A DNA stretch of 64,000 nucleotides from a virus. Of this stretch, positions 13,558 through 21,204 are shown piece by piece. The stretch's first letter is position 1. Every line of letters begins with the position of its first letter. The translations under genes were made by a program, and so were the position numbers. Location of the stretch: positions 3,871 through 67,870 of the IMG/VR virus record IMGVR_UViG_3300000115_000007; one strand, written 5' to 3'. Below the pieces are notes generated by a model. That model ran no database searches and was not told where the DNA came from. It saw only the letters and a list, made by a program, of their open reading frames with translations.

Positions 13558-13674
13558 ATGGAAGAGGAAGATAAAGGCTTTTATATTGATGACGACGGCG
13601 TAGCAGTTATTCTTGAACCTATCCATTTTAAATACCCATATGGTAGAGATGACGATGACGATGAAGACATTTAA
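13558..13674 (+). CDS. Truncated module peptide (38 aa), possible gene remnant
   Basis: MEEEDKGFYIDDDGVAVILE followed by a DDDDDEDI tail. The GFYIDDDGVAVILEPI part matches, at DNA level too, residues about 14-28 of the next gene (GYYINKDGVAVILEPI), so this is a partial duplicate of that N-terminal module without the MKTF leader or an enzymatic domain. It could be a real acidic microprotein or a decaying copy; the next gene starts inside it. Confidence 0.45.
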   Translation: MEEEDKGFYIDDDGVAVILEPIHFKYPYGRDDDDDEDI

Positions 13675-14446
13675 GCAGTATTCAAAAGAAGAAGATAAAG
13701 GTTATTATATTAACAAGGATGGCGTAGCAGTCATCCTTGAGCCCATTGGTAATCACAGGTCCAGAAATAATAAAAATGTTTCAGAAGAATTTGGACCAGA
13801 AATAGATGGTAAAAGGCACAATCTTCTATTCTTTCATCATAAGTACGATAAGCATAAACATGATCAAACCGCAGATGATATCCATAACGCGCTAAAGCGT
13901 ACATCACCAAAGCTAAGTGATAAGACTATTAAAGCTATTAAAAAATATTCAAGCGGTTCTCATGAACTAAATAAAAATCTAATTGCAAAACATAGCAATA
14001 AACCATTACCTCATCCAAAAGAAGATATGAGCGTTCATAATGAGATGATGAAAGGCTATCGAAAAGCCGGCACTAATTTCGTGGCATATGCTGGAGTAAG
14101 TGATAGAGTTCATAAAAATATGAAAGCTTCTTCTGATAAATTGCATTCGTCACCTACACACGTATCGGCTTCAGTTCATGCTGAAGGAGCTAAACAATTT
14201 GCAGAATTAAAACAGAGTTCTGATAACCCTCATGATGAGTTGCATTATGCTGCTTATCATATTGATAAAGATGATGAGGTGTGTCATGTTCATCCACATA
14301 GTCCTATGTATTCTGGTGGCGCCGGTGACGAACATGAAGTTACTATTAAACCACATAGCGTATGGAAACATGTAGGAACTACAACGCATTTAAGTAATAC
14401 TGGTGGTTGGCATATAGTAGATCATTTTAAAAGGCACAAATCATGA
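13661..14446 (+). CDS. ADP-ribosyltransferase-like protein 1, tagged
   Basis: A 261-residue His-rich protein. The start at 13661 gives MKTFKQYSKEEDKGYYI, matching the next paralogue; an in-frame upstream start at 13613 lacks that fit. The C-terminal half follows the R-S-E pattern of Alt/VIP2-type mono-ADP-ribosyltransferases: AYAGVSDR at the first motif (the usual Arg is Ala), THVSASVHAEGAKQFAE for the STS strand, and DEHEVTI for the ExE catalytic motif. First of three tandem paralogues. T4 Alt is packaged in the head and modifies host RNA polymerase; the same is inferred here. Activity is doubtful because of the missing Arg. Confidence 0.6.
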   Translation: MKTFKQYSKEEDKGYYINKDGVAVILEPIGNHRSRNNKNVSEEFGPEIDGKRHNLLFFHHKYDKHKHDQTADDIHNALKRTSPKLSDKTIKAIKKYSSGSHELNKNLIAKHSNKPLPHPKEDMSVHNEMMKGYRKAGTNFVAYAGVSDRVHKNMKASSDKLHSSPTHVSASVHAEGAKQFAELKQSSDNPHDELHYAAYHIDKDDEVCHVHPHSPMYSGGAGDEHEVTIKPHSVWKHVGTTTHLSNTGGWHIVDHFKRHKS

Positions 14447-15372
14447 AGACGTTTAAACAGTATTCAAAGTATTCAAAAGAAGACGAAGGCTTTTATATTG
14501 ATGATAACGGCGTTGCTGTATTCACTGATATTTTAGGACACGGTGATAAACCTAAAAGTATCAATAAACCTAAAAAAGTTATTAAAGAAAATGCTTCTGC
14601 TGTCAAACATATAGCAAAAGAAAAAAGTTGGTTGAATTGGCGTCATGAATCTATTCATGATGGAGAAGAAGTAGATAATGATGAACATGTTGAAGAAAAG
14701 TCTCATCAATTATTGCAGCATCATCAAAAGCATCAAGAGAAAAATCCTTTAAGTGACGAACAGAAAAAATCAATTAAATCATATACCCAATTTTCAGAAA
14801 GATTTAATAAACATTTAATCGAAAAGCACACATTAAAGTCTCGCAGAAAAGTTCCAGACCACCATTGGGATGGCATGAACGGAATTCCTGATGACAAGGA
14901 AAGAGCTGCACACGATAAAATGCACAAACATTTGAGTGATGCTTATCATCCTATGGGAGGACATTTCAAACTATGGTCTGGAGTATCTTCTAGAGTTAGC
15001 AAAGCTGTAAAAAAATCAAAAGATGGTATAATTCATCCAGGTGGAGGTCACATATCTACTACGTATGATAAAGATGTTGCGCAGACCTTTGCAGCTACAA
15101 AGACTAAGAATGCTGAAGGAGTTGCACAACCATACGGTAAACATCATTACATGTGCATACATGCAAAACCGAAAGACAAAGTTCTTAGTACTGAACATAA
15201 TAGCACATGGAAAGACGAGAGAGAAGTTTTAGTTAAAGATAAATTAAAACATATCGGCACTACAAAACACTATGTTAAACATGCTTTTAAAAAAGATGAC
15301 GGCAGCTATGGTGAACATTCTACAGAACATCATGTTGATCATTTCGAAATTCATCACGACGGGAGTAAATAA
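14443..15372 (+). CDS. ADP-ribosyltransferase-like protein 2, tagged
   Basis: A 309-residue paralogue with leader MKTFKQYSKYSKEDEGFYI and module GFYIDDNGVAVFTDIL. ART-type motifs: LWSGVSSR (Arg position is Ser), GGGHISTTYDKDVAQTFA (STS-like), DEREVLVKDKLKHIG (ExE). The best match of the three to the family. ATGA overlap upstream, one-base overlap downstream. His-rich linkers. Probable target: a host protein early after injection. Confidence 0.65.
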   Translation: MKTFKQYSKYSKEDEGFYIDDNGVAVFTDILGHGDKPKSINKPKKVIKENASAVKHIAKEKSWLNWRHESIHDGEEVDNDEHVEEKSHQLLQHHQKHQEKNPLSDEQKKSIKSYTQFSERFNKHLIEKHTLKSRRKVPDHHWDGMNGIPDDKERAAHDKMHKHLSDAYHPMGGHFKLWSGVSSRVSKAVKKSKDGIIHPGGGHISTTYDKDVAQTFAATKTKNAEGVAQPYGKHHYMCIHAKPKDKVLSTEHNSTWKDEREVLVKDKLKHIGTTKHYVKHAFKKDDGSYGEHSTEHHVDHFEIHHDGSK

Positions 15373-16388
15373 TGGAAAGATTTGGATCATATATACAAGA
15401 TGAAGGCTTCTATATGAGCAATGGTGTGGTTACTCTCAGCAAAGCTATAGGTGAAAAAACTCCTAGAACAAAAAGAATTGGAAGAGGTATATTTGAAGGA
15501 TTTGATACTACTGGTTTTAAGCAAGCAAAAACAGAAAAACGGGTCGATCATCAACATCACGAGCCTCGCAATGACTTACATGATAATAAGAAAAGAACAC
15601 ATATTGATGATGTTCAAAAGAATAAGAATATCTATGGTGAAACTGGTCATGAACTCAGCACATCACATCGTGGATCTGACATAGAAGAAGTAGGTAGTTT
15701 ATCAAGTAAACTTCAGCAAAAAATGACAGCCGCACAGCACAACGCTTTTCGTCATTTTACAAATGGAAAATCTGATACGGTCGATGACGGTAAAAAATGG
15801 GCGTCTAGTCATATAGCTAAACATTTTATTTCTAATCATAAGCTTAAGGCAGATAATAAAAAGTTAGCTCCGTACCGAGCAAGTAATGTTATCGGCCAAG
15901 ATAAAAACGCTGCTGATCATCTTAAAACTGCAGCTAAACCTCTTGGCCATGAAGTGCATCTCTATTCCGGCGTTCATCCTTCATTTGTACAAGCCATTAA
16001 ACATGCAAAAAAACATACCGATGGTGTTGTTCATTCTCCAGCTCATATTTCCACTACTCATGATGTGCACACCGCAGCTGGATTTGCAATTCATTCCGGA
16101 CACCAGAAGGAGCATGTTAGACCTTTAAATAAAAATACAGATACTCAATATGTAGGTAAAACAACTAAACATATGATTCACGTTCATGCTAAAGCTAGTG
16201 ATAAAGGTATTCATATGAGTGGTGTAGAAGGTAACAAACATGCTGCTGAAGCAGAAACTGTACTTCCGCCTGCAACACAGTTAAAATATTCGCATACTAC
16301 ATATCATTATCACACAATGCCAGATCAGAATGATGACGATCACCATAGAGTCGATGTGCATCATTGTACGATCCATAAACAGGACTAA
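15372..16388 (+). CDS. ADP-ribosyltransferase-like protein 3, tagged
   Basis: A 338-residue paralogue. Leader MERFGSYIQDEGFYMSNG keeps the aromatic spacing of the other leaders. ART-type motifs: HLYSGVHPS (Arg replaced by Ser), PAHISTTHDVHTAAGFA, and AEAETVLPPATQL as the ExE motif. A long His/Lys-rich middle (about residues 50-180) separates leader and catalytic part. Ends the late operon just before a weak hairpin and an early promoter. Confidence 0.6.
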   Translation: MERFGSYIQDEGFYMSNGVVTLSKAIGEKTPRTKRIGRGIFEGFDTTGFKQAKTEKRVDHQHHEPRNDLHDNKKRTHIDDVQKNKNIYGETGHELSTSHRGSDIEEVGSLSSKLQQKMTAAQHNAFRHFTNGKSDTVDDGKKWASSHIAKHFISNHKLKADNKKLAPYRASNVIGQDKNAADHLKTAAKPLGHEVHLYSGVHPSFVQAIKHAKKHTDGVVHSPAHISTTHDVHTAAGFAIHSGHQKEHVRPLNKNTDTQYVGKTTKHMIHVHAKASDKGIHMSGVEGNKHAAEAETVLPPATQLKYSHTTYHYHTMPDQNDDDHHRVDVHHCTIHKQD

Positions 16389-17492: not shown

Positions 17493-17725
17493 TTTATGTT
17501 GCACAAATGGTATACACTGATACAGAAAATTATCATAGTATTTTAGTTGGAGCATTTAGTTCTAAAAAACTAGCTCAAGAGGCTTGCGACATTGAGTTTA
17601 TGAGAAATCCAAAATATCAGCCATGCATTCATTCTTTTGAATTAGATGCACCAGGCAGTCAACAGCAGCAAGATGCTAAATTAAGACCAGAAATGATTTT
17701 ACATACCGAACAAACTATGGTATAA
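17489..17725 (+). CDS. Hypothetical protein (78 aa)
   Basis: Starts in an ATGA overlap with the IscA-like gene (an in-frame upstream codon at 17462 is less likely). Begins MIYVAQMVYTDTENYHSILV and has a GAFSSKKLAQEAC segment, a SPOR/sub-domain-like alpha-beta pattern common in small phage proteins. Unknown function. A promoter for the tRNA lies in its last codons. Confidence 0.65.
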   Translation: MIYVAQMVYTDTENYHSILVGAFSSKKLAQEACDIEFMRNPKYQPCIHSFELDAPGSQQQQDAKLRPEMILHTEQTMV

Positions 17726-17726
17726 T
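17698..17726 (+). promoter_or_regulatory. Promoter for the tRNA-Arg / structured RNA unit
   Basis: TTTACA, 17 bases, TATAAT with TGG before the -10. The -10 ends nine bases before the first base of the tRNA, so transcription would start at or just before the mature 5' end. Confidence 0.75.
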
Positions 17727-17735
17727 ATAAGTATT

Positions 17736-17812
17736 GGTCCCTTAGCTCAGCTGGATAGAGCAAGTGCCTTCTAAGCACTAGGTCAGAGGTTCGAATCCTC
17801 TAGGGTCCGCCA
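17736..17812 (+). tRNA. tRNA-Arg (anticodon UCU)
   Basis: Complete cloverleaf with encoded CCA. Acceptor GGTCCCT/AGGGTCC (a U-U mismatch at pair 3-70), D arm GCTC/GAGC, anticodon arm AGTGC-CTTCTAA-GCACT (anticodon TCT at bases 34-36), T arm AGAGG-TTCGAAT-CCTCT, discriminator G. It reads AGA/AGG, codons used often in this AT-rich genome. Directly followed by the structured RNA at 17813. Confidence 0.93.
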
Positions 17813-17974
17813 GACACTAACTATGAACTAAAGGGGGATTAGTTAGTGAAACCCTATAGATTTTGGAGGCCCCAATCTATAGGTCGGTACATTCGCTGAT
17901 ACCGCTAAACTCAGCCGGTTGCTGCATACGTAAAATGCAGATAGAAGAGAGCGCACCTAGGAAGGCGCTCTCTT
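17813..17974 (+). ncRNA. Undescribed structured RNA with H-type pseudoknot
   Basis: No coding frame. Helices by eye: P1 CACTAACTA/TAGTTAGTG (17815-17823 with 17840-17848); P2 CCTATAGATT/AATCTATAGG (17853-17862 with 17874-17883); a pseudoknot of CGGTA/TACCG (17885-17889 with 17900-17904) interleaved with GCTGA/TCAGC (17895-17899 with 17911-17915); P4 CTGCAT/ATGCAG (17922-17927 with 17935-17940); P5 AAGAGAGCGC/GCGCTCTCTT (17945-17954 with 17965-17974). A GGGG run in the P1 loop can pair with CCCC in the P2 loop. P1, P2 and P5 loops contain GGA. Cotranscribed with tRNA-Arg and probably released by tRNA 3' processing. No known class recognised. Confidence 0.75.
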
Positions 17975-17977
17975 CGA

Positions 17978-18050
17978 TTAATAAATAATACCATAATATT
18001 ACTAATCAGCTTAAAATAGGCATTAGTAATATTATAGTATCATTTATTAA
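17978..18050. repeat. Long imperfect inverted repeat
   Basis: Arms 17978-18006 and 18022-18050 (29 bases each, two mismatches, core ATAATATTACTAAT perfect) around a 15-base spacer. Very AT-rich and non-coding. Could be a protein-binding site, a cruciform or an origin-like element; as RNA it would form a long stem after the structured RNA. Confidence 0.8.
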
Positions 18051-18068
18051 ATATAAAGGATTAACGAG

Positions 18069-18251
18069 TTGTATAAATTAATGAGAAATAATAAGATAGT
18101 TCAACAAGTTGTAATGACCGGTGAATTAGGATATATGATATATAAAACACCGGTTATAATTAATTTGACATTTGATAATAGAGACAAAGCACTTGAAGTT
18201 GCAAAAATATTAAATGCTAAAGTTGTAGAAGAATTTGTGAAAGTAGCTTAA
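18069..18251 (+). CDS. Hypothetical small protein (60 aa)
   Basis: Start is TTG at 18069, seven bases after AAAGGA; an ATG at 18081 is the alternative. Pattern is beta-rich then helix (DKALEVAKILNAK). Function unknown. TAATG overlap with the next gene. Confidence 0.6.
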   Translation: MYKLMRNNKIVQQVVMTGELGYMIYKTPVIINLTFDNRDKALEVAKILNAKVVEEFVKVA

Positions 18252-19313: not shown

Positions 19314-19510
19314 AAGAACAATTATTGCTAGCATGTCGCATGCATGCCGAAGGTGAACTAGAAAGAGCTAAAACTAATTTTATGGTTTATTTAAATAATC
19401 CTGCTGGCATTGGCGAACATAGTGATATTGTAGAGGCTATGCAAAAAGAGCTTAGTACTATGGGTCATGCAAGTGAACGTCTTGAAATGTTAAGTAAGCA
19501 TTTTGAATGA
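19310..19510 (+). CDS. Hypothetical helical protein (66 aa)
   Basis: GTG start in the GTGA overlap with the previous gene. Predicted helical throughout (ACRMHAEGELERAKTNF, SERLEMLSKHFE). ATGA overlap with the next gene. Function unknown. Confidence 0.65.
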   Translation: MKEQLLLACRMHAEGELERAKTNFMVYLNNPAGIGEHSDIVEAMQKELSTMGHASERLEMLSKHFE

Positions 19511-20196
19511 AATATTTTATCGCTGCTCCATTTGGAAATTATATAAAACTATCAAATGTGATTAGCGTAACTGGAAGTTGGACTTATCAGAATCGTCCAG
19601 GACTATTTCCTCAGATCTTAAAAACACTTCGTTATACTAAAGATGGATGGCGAAATAAAATAGGTCTGAGGAATGCTGGAATAAAAGAAGGATTAAAGAG
19701 ATCTGGTCTCAATGATGTTTTAAGTTTAGCAGCTATTGATCATTGGGACTGGATTAATCTAGATAGCATTGTTCCAAGTAATACTTCTTTAGAAATTAAT
19801 ATTAGTTGCCCTAATTTAGATAAAGATGTTGGAGCAGTTAGTTTACCAGGATTTGATTTATGGCCATCAACTAATAGAGATTGGTGTATTTGCAAAATAC
19901 CTCCTACTGCAACAGAAAGCCTTATTGATCAAATAGTTGATTCTGGCTATAGTCAAATTCATGCCAGTAATACTTTATATTCTATCCATGGAGGACAAAG
20001 TGGAAAACTATTAGTACCATACACAAATAGAATTATTGAATATATTAAAACAAAACATCCTCATGTAACAATCATCGCTGGTGGAGGTGTGACTACAAAG
20101 AAAGATGCTGAAAATTATTTTAATCGAGGTGCTAGTTATGTGAGTCTTGGATCGGTATGTTTTACACCATGGAAAATAAAAAATATTTTATCTTAG
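19507..20196 (+). CDS. Dihydroorotate-dehydrogenase-like FMN enzyme
   Basis: A 229-residue TIM-barrel type protein. LEINISCPN is the conserved substrate loop of PyrD enzymes, SNTL...GGQSGKLLVP the following FMN/substrate segment, and IIAGGGVTTKKDAENYF with GASYVSLGSVCF the phosphate-binding end. Shorter than cellular DHODH (about 300 or more residues): the N-terminal part is reduced. It would help make pyrimidines from orotate precursors during infection, or has been redirected. Family likely; activity uncertain. Confidence 0.8.
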   Translation: MKYFIAAPFGNYIKLSNVISVTGSWTYQNRPGLFPQILKTLRYTKDGWRNKIGLRNAGIKEGLKRSGLNDVLSLAAIDHWDWINLDSIVPSNTSLEINISCPNLDKDVGAVSLPGFDLWPSTNRDWCICKIPPTATESLIDQIVDSGYSQIHASNTLYSIHGGQSGKLLVPYTNRIIEYIKTKHPHVTIIAGGGVTTKKDAENYFNRGASYVSLGSVCFTPWKIKNILS

Positions 20197-20221: not shown

Positions 20222-20258
20222 ATCTCAATTGAGCATAATACAGAGAGAGGAAATACTC

Positions 20259-21083
20259 GTGACACAATTGATTGAACCAAAAAAATTTACGAAAGCTGTT
20301 GACCTTTTAAGGTCATTTTTTTTAAATAGAGGCTTTCAAGAAGTACATACCCAAAATCGTTTAAGTATTTTAGCTGCATGTGAAGATCCAGAAAATGTAG
20401 CAACATATAATTATGAAGGGCAAATATGGCCTCTTCCTCAAACTGGCCAGATGTGGTTAGAATATGAATTATTAACTCGCCCCTCTTCGAAGGGGTTTTT
20501 TTGTATCTCAACTTCGTACAGACAAGAACCAAATGCAATTCCTGGAAGACATGATACGATTTTTCCAATGTTTGAATTTGAAATGCCAGGAGACATTAAT
20601 GATCTTAAGACTATGGAATATCAGTTATGTAATCATTTAGGTTTCGATATTCCAACAGAAAAAACGTATCGTGAATGGCAGCAACATTATGGTCTAAGTG
20701 CTACAACTGAATTAGATGCTCAGCACGAGTTAGCAATGGAAGCCAGTTTTGGTAGTTCTATGATTACTGAATTTCCAGAATTTACAAGTCCATTCTGGAA
20801 TATGTCAAGAAATGAAGATGGTACAAGTAAGAAGATTGATGTTATCCTTGGCGGCATGGAAACAATTGGTAGTGCAGAACGCAGTACTGATAAAGACCAA
20901 ATGCGGGACACATTTCATACTATTTCAAATGGGGAATATGCCGGTCTTATTAACCAGTTATTTGGTAAAGATCGTGTTGAAGCTGAACTTGAAAAGTTTC
21001 TTGAATTTGATTTCTTTCCAAGAGTTGGTGGAGGAATTGGAATGACCCGCATGATTAGTGCACTCGATACTCTTAAAAAGTAA
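20259..21083 (+). CDS. Minimal class II aminoacyl-tRNA-synthetase-like enzyme (Asx type)
   Basis: A 274-residue protein from GTG 20259, which follows AGAGAGAGG; a TTG at 20229 has no such site. Class II motifs: motif 1-like FFLNRGFQEVHT (residues 20-31); QTGQMWLE (61-68) as in Asp/Asn enzymes; motif 2 SYRQEPN...GRH with FEFE (86-108), keeping Arg88 and Glu90; a GGMETIGSAERS segment; motif 3 GGGIGMTRM with Arg264 ten residues from the end. There is no N-terminal OB anticodon-binding domain, as in archaeal asparagine synthetase (AsnRS paralogue) and EpmA. Eleven bases later comes an unusual tRNA with an Asn anticodon. Substrate could be aspartate or asparagine; whether it charges RNA is unknown. 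Confidence 0.82.
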   Translation: MTQLIEPKKFTKAVDLLRSFFLNRGFQEVHTQNRLSILAACEDPENVATYNYEGQIWPLPQTGQMWLEYELLTRPSSKGFFCISTSYRQEPNAIPGRHDTIFPMFEFEMPGDINDLKTMEYQLCNHLGFDIPTEKTYREWQQHYGLSATTELDAQHELAMEASFGSSMITEFPEFTSPFWNMSRNEDGTSKKIDVILGGMETIGSAERSTDKDQMRDTFHTISNGEYAGLINQLFGKDRVEAELEKFLEFDFFPRVGGGIGMTRMISALDTLKK

Positions 21084-21094
21084 GATAAGAATAA

Positions 21095-21204
21095 TCCAAG
21101 GTGGTGGAATAGGTAGACACGCAGCACTGTTTATGCTGTGAATATATAGTCTTAGCAAAAGAATATTTATATTCGTGTAGGTTCGAATCCTGCCCTTGGA
21201 GCCA
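21095..21204 (+). tRNA. Aberrant class-II-shaped tRNA with GUU (Asn) anticodon
   Basis: A 110-base tRNA with encoded CCA. Acceptor TCCAAGG/CCTTGGA, discriminator G. The D region TGGTGGAATAGGTAGACAC is leucine-like. Anticodon arm CAGCA-CTGTTTA-TGCTG puts GTT at 21129-21131 (Asn), with U at position 37. The variable arm is 38 bases, with a GAATATA/TATATTC stem and an inner TCTT/AAGA stem. T arm GTAGG-TTCGAAT-CCTGC. U1-A72, G73 and GUU are asparagine features, while the body is Leu/class II. Follows the Asx-synthetase-like gene by 11 bases. Confidence 0.85.

Follow-up and report, generated by a model that had tools for sequence, protein, structure and literature searches.

The window, the whole stretch of 64,000 nucleotides analyzed here, comes from a virus record of 91,663 bases (IMGVR_UViG_3300000115_000007). 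Judging from its predicted proteins the phage is T4-like, an assignment that rests on the relatives of its baseplate wedge protein, the nearest of which is found in Phage C48C1 (39.9% identity), followed by the HTVC008M and Melnitz phages (33-34%), and on the presence of gp32 (Pfam PF08804). A neighboring gene codes for an Fe-S protein (PF01521). On the + strand, a tRNA-Arg gene is directly followed by a structured RNA, the parts of which are given here together with the support from the alignment A6 and the covariance model R1 described further below.

17698..17726, + strand: promoter-like site TTTACA-17-TATAAT with TG, before the tRNA (consensus scan, 11/12)
17736..17812, + strand: tRNA-Arg, anticodon UCU, CCA encoded, directly upstream of the RNA (ARAGORN; Rfam RF00005, 67 bits)
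17813..17978, + strand: whole RNA, comprising the 5' hairpin P1 and the conserved core P2-P5 (fold z-score, match to model R1, G-U strand signal)
17815-17823/17840-17848, + strand: P1, variable 5' hairpin of 9 bp; many relatives lack it or have a replacement
17853-17862/17874-17883, + strand: P2, hairpin of 10 bp; 4/6 modelled pairs changed on both sides
17868..17871, + strand: apex of P2, self-complementary, GGCC in the window; six such tetranucleotides among members
17885-17889/17900-17904, + strand: pseudoknot helix S1, CGGTA/TACCG; C-G 34 / U-A 9 at one pair
17895-17899/17911-17915, + strand: pseudoknot helix S2, GCTGA/TCAGC; double changes at A6 pairs 83-112 and 87-105
17922-17927/17935-17940, + strand: P4, hairpin CTGCAT/ATGCAG with loop ACGTAAA; 3/6 pairs double-changed, 97.3% of cells paired
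17944-17954/17965-17975, + strand: P5, 3' G+C-rich hairpin; 10/10 pairs double-changed, 99.3% of cells paired
17956..17961, + strand: P5 loop hexamer CCTAGG, self-complementary; CTGCAG or CTCGAG in relatives

The segment 17813-17975 folds at -57.3 kcal/mol, as compared to -39.1 +/- 3.6 kcal/mol for 200 dinucleotide shuffles, none of which was as good (z -5.0). A sequence-only reading of the same DNA had proposed five helices here, an H-type pseudoknot and a density of pairing far above chance; all of these helices were found in the window at the places proposed, and the fold energy bears out the excess of pairing. The start of the RNA at the base after the tRNA CCA also stands, whereas its end, previously set at 17974, has been corrected, since P5 extends to 17975 and the model match to 17978. 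The GGGG/CCCC loop contact that had been considered possible is not conserved and was rejected: it is broken in two loci with the same subtype of the RNA, L005, which has GTTTAAAC in the P1 loop though CCCC is kept in the P2 loop, and L007, which has GGGTG. The sole ORF of at least 40 aa within the RNA is a 41-aa frame starting with TTG, and the indels and pair-preserving changes among the homologs do not read like those of a coding sequence. A short + strand ORF begins at 18069, approximately 90 nt downstream of the RNA.

Other features of the window were observed in passing. An AT-rich inverted repeat with 29-nt arms that are 93% complementary is located directly 3' of the RNA (17978-18050), and AT-rich repeats of a similar kind are also located 3' of the RNA in L004 and L005. 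At 21095-21201, Rfam identifies a tRNA (46.8 bits) that was not called by ARAGORN and in which the variable region is enlarged by about 35 bases; this tRNA is also found in L005 (8068-8174) and L007 (6664-6770). Three consecutive, related-looking ORFs of 277, 309 and 338 aa at 13613-16388 resemble ADP-ribosyltransferases by eye, with no Pfam match to the middle ORF, which was the only one of the three scanned. Proteins similar to dihydroorotate dehydrogenases and to class II (D, K, N) aminoacyl-tRNA synthetases, the latter perhaps AsnA-like, are encoded at 19507-20196 and 20229-21083, respectively.

A search for the PF01521 Fe-S neighbor yielded 80 viral loci, of which 42 were scanned for tRNAs. 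A tRNA-Arg(UCU) gene on the + strand was identified in 14 of these 42 loci, and the RNA followed directly after the tRNA in all 14; in L068, where the tRNA-Arg(UCU) is on the other strand, there was no match to the RNA. The RNAs at the tRNA-Arg loci are of two subtypes, A (the window and L003-L008) and B (L009-L013 and L016-L018). Because MAFFT misaligned the pseudoknot between the subtypes, R1 was built from eight subtype B sequences only, omitting P1 and the second helix of the pseudoknot. This model recovered 7 of 7 subtype A sources with E-values from 1.1e-11 to 3.5e-13, including the window (17846-17978, E 1.1e-11), along with ten short opposite-strand matches to the near-symmetric P5. 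Additional members were obtained by pattern scans, which gave two of three new contigs (L087 and L097; L086 was false), 3 of 12, 25 of 25 (viral) and 13 of 13 new loci in further scans, and 38 of 40 loci with a pattern placed in the pseudoknot and the beginning of P4. In bacterial and archaeal genomes, one pattern scan yielded three loci; only L143 is accepted by R1, and this 3.6-kb contig of a Bacteroidetes MAG is probably phage. Among the loci listed from a gp32 search with at least 80 loci, the RNA was present in the flanks of two, L194 and L203, the latter being the same contig as L117, and a third match (E 0.49) was taken as chance; as judged from the listed loci, most gp32 neighborhoods of the nearer relatives of the window therefore lack the RNA.

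In total, the RNA was identified at 98 loci, identical copies included, and 83 rows representing 67 distinct cores were analyzed. The alignment A6 contains 44 rows (43 distinct) of the 59 members known at that stage, with 15 duplicates or truncated members left out (L003, L006, L008, L013, L097, L121, L127, L133, L134, L138, L141, L148, L149, L154 and L155). The held-out set consists of L194, found via gp32, and of 38 rows retrieved by a pattern lying outside both loops; it represents 24 distinct cores, and no row was dropped from it.

We also searched for the RNA in sequence databases. A blastn search with 17700-18100 matched 2183 records, none covering more than 80% of the query; in the 20 of these records that were listed the matches were mainly on the tRNA, and the longest overrun, in JeanPiccard, extended about 38 bases past the tRNA into a region with no R2 match. 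With subtype B as the query, blastn gave five records at E 7, and with subtype C nothing. No R2 match was obtained in C48C1, HTVC008M, Melnitz EXVC044M, S-H9-1 or phiN3, which suggests that the RNA is not universal among related phages, with the reservation that these five records may be fragments. In a cmscan of 22 sources (the window and 21 loci) against Rfam 15, only tRNA and tmRNA models reached the gathering cut-off, and in permissive scans of three members all matches apart from the tRNA were sub-threshold. The RNA is found at some 98 loci, yet stays below every Rfam cut-off in the sources scanned. A published description of it was not found in titles and abstract openings, a search that left most subscription journals and bioRxiv outside its scope. 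The family is probably marine, as inferred from the phage relatives; the habitats of the contigs are not shown.

Pair conservation was assessed in A6, where 94.6% of the 1444 pair cells are standard and 21 of the 34 pairs have changed on both sides, in both pseudoknot helices among others. The covariation score was 0.423, as compared to 0.165 +/- 0.008 for shuffled alignments (0 of 500 as high), and controls with slid partners gave at most 48.2% paired cells and scores of at most 0.117. A6 was fitted to the nested helices of the model, which favors those helices, but S2 had not been included in any model. Across the 43 distinct rows, the pair that switches in S1 is C-G in 34 and U-A in 9, while in S2 one pair is A-U in 19, U-A in 12 and G-C in 8 and another is G-C in 21, A-U in 9 and G-U in 4. 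The simplest alignment of S2 places these two varying pairs around an invariant CUG/CAG middle; an additional outer pair, also included, fails to form in 33 of the 43 rows. Both of the interleaved helices of the H-type pseudoknot proposed in the sequence-only reading thus show compensatory changes in homologs.

Eight of eight scored P1 pairs were formed in 12 of 13 tRNA-Arg members by script, and in L016 the arms pair by eye; double changes from A-U to G-C and from C-G to G-C distinguish the window from L005. Since G-U cells (60) outnumber A-C cells (11), the + strand, which is also the strand of the tRNA, is inferred to be the RNA strand. The earlier proposal of a new structured RNA with a pseudoknot after tRNA-Arg was to stand or fall with compensatory changes in homologs; many were observed, by pair counts rather than by R-scape, and with no Rfam cut-off reached, the proposal is supported. 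That the structured RNA is real, conserved and unlisted we regard as practically certain.

The main new point, which was missing from the earlier description, is that two of the loops are self-complementary. In each of the 41 distinct combinations of P2 and P5, both hairpins hold self-complementary stretches of at least four bases. The inner part of P2 contains the cores GGCC, TGCA, GTAC, TCGA, GCGC or ACGT, and P5 contains the hexamers CCTAGG, CTGCAG or CTCGAG in 36 of 44 rows and GTGCAT in the other eight, all of subtype B, where six-base self-complementarity of GUGCAU is achieved only with G-U. Mapped on a tree from which both loops were left out, the P2 core has undergone at least ten changes among its six tetranucleotides and the P5 core at least seven among three; of the 39 inner branches of this short tree, 12 have good support and 13 are open. 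L146 and L156 differ by a two-sided change from TCGA to GCGC. All 17 representative P2 loops were self-complementary as compared to 2.66 expected (0 of 200,000 draws), although these loops were chosen after inspection and some had a stem base added. Hexamer palindromes were found in only 4 of 53 like-sized hairpins elsewhere in the loci, as compared to 29 of 30 family hairpins (both strands). The loop of P4 provides a contrast, in that its sequence is unchanged where ACGT is present and lacks a palindrome in subtype B.

In the held-out set, the P5 hexamer was retained in 39 of 39 rows and the P2 palindrome in 38 of 39, the exception being L274, which is cut off before P2. No new palindrome core appeared and 22 of the 24 cores had CTGCAG in P5, so this set tests retention more than switching. 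In the minimum-energy folds, the hairpin loop encloses the entire P2 palindrome in 33 of 43 cores of A6 and in 17 of 23 from the held-out set, or in 37 of 43 and 23 of 23 if one base is allowed on either side; in six A6 cores (L016, L150, L151, L153, L118 and L137) the palindrome is outside the predicted loop. For the P5 hexamer, full enclosure in the loop is predicted in 29 of 43 cores of A6 and in 23 of 24 from the held-out set; with three bases allowed, the numbers increase to 36 of 43 and 24 of 24, and the seven that remain are all of subtype B. The hexamer is partly paired in the predicted folds of some members (e.g., L004, L126, L129).

The middle bases of a palindrome are adjacent and thus unable to pair within one molecule, yet they co-vary, which indicates pairing between two molecules. 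Kissing of P2 with P5 within one molecule was considered and rejected: within A6, the two cores are identical in the eight rows of subtype B, whereas they differ in all 36 others. An identical P2 and P5 core is also present in the held-out L287. Since the cores agree only in these cases, the most likely partner of each loop is the corresponding loop of a second copy. As far as can be told from aligned sequences, the switching of the P2 and P5 palindromes is the signature of symmetric kissing loops, although actual kissing has not been shown, and homo-oligomerization through the two loops is likely, a prediction for which there is no experiment. On paper, four-base kisses of P2 are weak, with bare-duplex energies of -2.5 kcal/mol for UGCA, -1.6 kcal/mol for GUAC and -5.9 kcal/mol for GGCC.

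The conserved unit is a core of about 130-143 nt that includes P2, the H-type pseudoknot S1/S2, P4 and the G+C-rich P5. Upstream of the core, P1 has 9 bp in subtype A and is long and branched in most of subtype B; it is replaced by another small domain in 20 of 61 distinct upstream stretches, and is absent where the core abuts tRNA-Met (L276, L281, L289) or the stop codon of gene 32 (L120, L126, L136, L139). Some cores were found beside a tRNA gene (tRNA-Arg, -Met, -Pro or -Trp), others behind a stop codon, either that of gene 32 or that of a different gene. A tRNA is located within 60 nt of 23 of the 67 distinct cores, within 500 nt of 15 more (38 in total) and farther away from one, while 28 have no tRNA within 1.5 kb of available sequence. 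These counts are lower bounds, as some contigs end earlier, L143 even within a tRNA. The placement directly after a tRNA described in the sequence-only reading thus applies to the subtype of the window, to the loci of subtype B and to some others; elsewhere, the same core is located before tRNAs and behind gene 32 or other genes. Among 38 loci that we chose for an analysis of neighbors, nine follow gene 32 (Pfam-checked in L129, by sequence likeness in the other eight), and in all nine the next long ORF is convergent and no more than 19 nt away. The downstream ORFs vary among members.

All 24 carrier records (13 + 11) contained one strong match; three of them, G001, G020 and G028, had a second, weak match (E 0.02-0.06). 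The records may be fragments, so that the single copy is a lower bound. A stretch in G020 with a weak R2 score of 14.3 bits (L264:3789-3914, - strand) looks structured, follows tRNA-Pro directly and has at its end a hairpin that, together with a U run, resembles a terminator; it is probably a different RNA.

A second small conserved domain, approximately GGCGAACGGGGAAAGCCTGGCAATNNCGCCAAACGTACCC, was observed just upstream of the core in L129 (~1862-1905), L122, L123, L145, L260, L287 and others. GGGG/ACCC becomes GAGG/ACTC in this domain, and GGC/GCC becomes GAC/GTC or AGC/GCT, so that, on the basis of these changes, it looks like a compact pseudoknot. This domain, present in 20 of the 61 distinct upstream stretches, reached no Rfam cut-off and is absent from the window at up to two mismatches.

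The dedicated promoter that had been inferred upstream of the tRNA could not be generalized to the relatives. The promoter-like site recurs, whole or in part, in L004, L005 and L007, is missing from L105 and from the subtype B loci examined, and the scan gave 6 sites as compared to 5.0 in shuffles, that is, no excess. At the other end, P5 is a strong hairpin that is followed by the tail CTTCGATT in the window and by CCCTTTTGAT in several relatives; a terminator scan gave no + strand site. We infer that P5 is probably both the transcription terminator and the 3' end of the RNA.

The explanation that we find reasonably probable is that these RNAs, encoded by phages and non-coding, constitute a new family whose members self-associate and act as free molecules in trans, although there are no expression, probing or assembly data. 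The RNA would be transcribed as the 3' portion of a tRNA precursor or an mRNA that terminates at P5, and would be freed by the 3' processing of the tRNA or by an RNase. Two copies are inferred to pair, P2 to P2 and P5 to P5; with two contacts per molecule, the assembly could close as a dimer or grow into a longer chain or ring, and the pseudoknot would be the rigid center. In the infected cell, the assembled RNA may then serve in trans as a stable scaffold or structural component, a function that is inferred only.

The most serious alternative is that the RNA is a 3'-end element in cis, in which a terminator and a pseudoknot roadblock define or protect the 3' end of the upstream transcript, and that it has no independent life. 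The position behind a tRNA or gene in most loci, the terminator-like P5, the different transcripts that carry the element, and the convergent ORF within 19 nt in all nine gene 32-linked loci are in line with this explanation, and the palindromes could have a purpose at the DNA or protein level, or pair two mRNA 3' ends. However, a general 3'-end element should recur, yet 24 of 24 carrier records have one strong copy, and termination would require no pseudoknot and no loop palindromes with coordinated changes. A single copy whose location varies speaks in favor of a trans-acting product. We favor a free trans-acting RNA and consider the cis element unlikely; a 3'-UTR element that acts in cis is not excluded. 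It is a speculative and rather doubtful idea that the RNA is a minimal self-assembling RNA that forms dimers, rings or filaments, with palindrome switching as a code for self-recognition against the RNA of a competing phage that infects the same cell.

It was also considered whether the RNA is a homolog of RNAD or RNAC (species 2 and 1) of phage T4, in the genome of which rnaD (119 nt) is located 1 nt after tRNA-Arg and is followed by rnaC (139 nt). The T4 RNAs likewise are small and of similar size and follow directly on tRNA-Arg in the genome of a T4-like phage, and their function is given as unknown in the accessible parts of the literature (PMC9697503, PMC12685909, PMC3014915). Homology is nevertheless very improbable: the predicted fold differs, R1 has no match in the T4 region (L098) at E 1, the best R2 match across the T4 genome (E 0.37) is not at rnaC or rnaD, and the 3' end of rnaC reads as T-arm-like, a feature that is lacking in the window RNA. 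The compact pseudoknot and the + strand ORF at 18069 might also point to a riboswitch or leader for the next gene, an explanation that is scarcely tenable, as the downstream ORFs vary among members and are convergent in all nine gene 32-linked loci, which leaves no gene to lead. Chance folding, or a decayed tRNA or repeat, is refuted for practical purposes by the z-score of -5.0, the cross-subtype model matches and the covariation, even though AT-rich hairpins arise easily in AT-rich DNA.

We compared the family to known RNAs that associate through loops. The packaging RNA of phage phi29 is a small phage RNA in which loops pair between copies, and our family is similar in being small and phage-encoded and, by prediction, in its loop pairing, a comparison made only through Rfam; T4-like phages are not known to use a packaging RNA. 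The dimerization initiation hairpins of retroviruses, which are part of the viral RNA genome, have a stable stem and a self-complementary hexamer in the loop; P5 is alike in its stem and loop hexamer, but the RNA and the function are unrelated.

The closest known kind is GOLLD/ROOL, with which there may be a functional likeness without membership. In the available part of a recent study (PMC12286853), GOLLD and ROOL are described as encoded by phages or prophages, often near tRNA islands, and of unknown function, with many GOLLD members longer than 800 nt. The same source describes symmetric kissing loops with covarying palindromes in OLE and GOLLD, applies the same palindrome argument as used here to OLE L9.3 and GOLLD L21a, and reports multimers by cryo-EM; it also names phi29 among the accepted RNA multimers (PMC12286853). 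Our family is likewise encoded by phages, with a tRNA often nearby (38 of 67 cores within 500 nt), and, as in GOLLD and OLE, its P2 and P5 loop palindromes change while staying self-complementary. In contrast to GOLLD, ROOL and OLE, it is much smaller and has a different fold with one central H-type pseudoknot, and unlike GOLLD and ROOL its assembly is predicted, not seen. No match to the GOLLD and ROOL models of Rfam was found in the window at the gathering cut-off, nor at E <= 10 in 17700-18080.

Natural multimers of RNA alone have rarely been observed, according to the accessible part of the same study, where the phage-borne GOLLD and ROOL with solved structures are large and of unknown function (PMC12286853). 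If the assembly is true, swapping loops in the core, at about 135 nt far below GOLLD and ROOL in size, would offer a way to test what phage RNA multimers are for. T4 also has unexplained small RNAs behind tRNA-Arg, and why T4-like phages keep such RNAs becomes testable.

Other structured RNAs are known from related phages. A tmRNA and a glutamine riboswitch are reported for Melnitz (PMC9004378), and other Rfam RNAs for the cyanophage S-CREM1 (PMC9964418), in the parts of these articles that were accessible. In our carrier contigs, ARAGORN identified tmRNA genes at L136:2174-2512, L281:6549-6943 and L283:6787-7181, the first of which also matches the permuted tmRNA model of Rfam.
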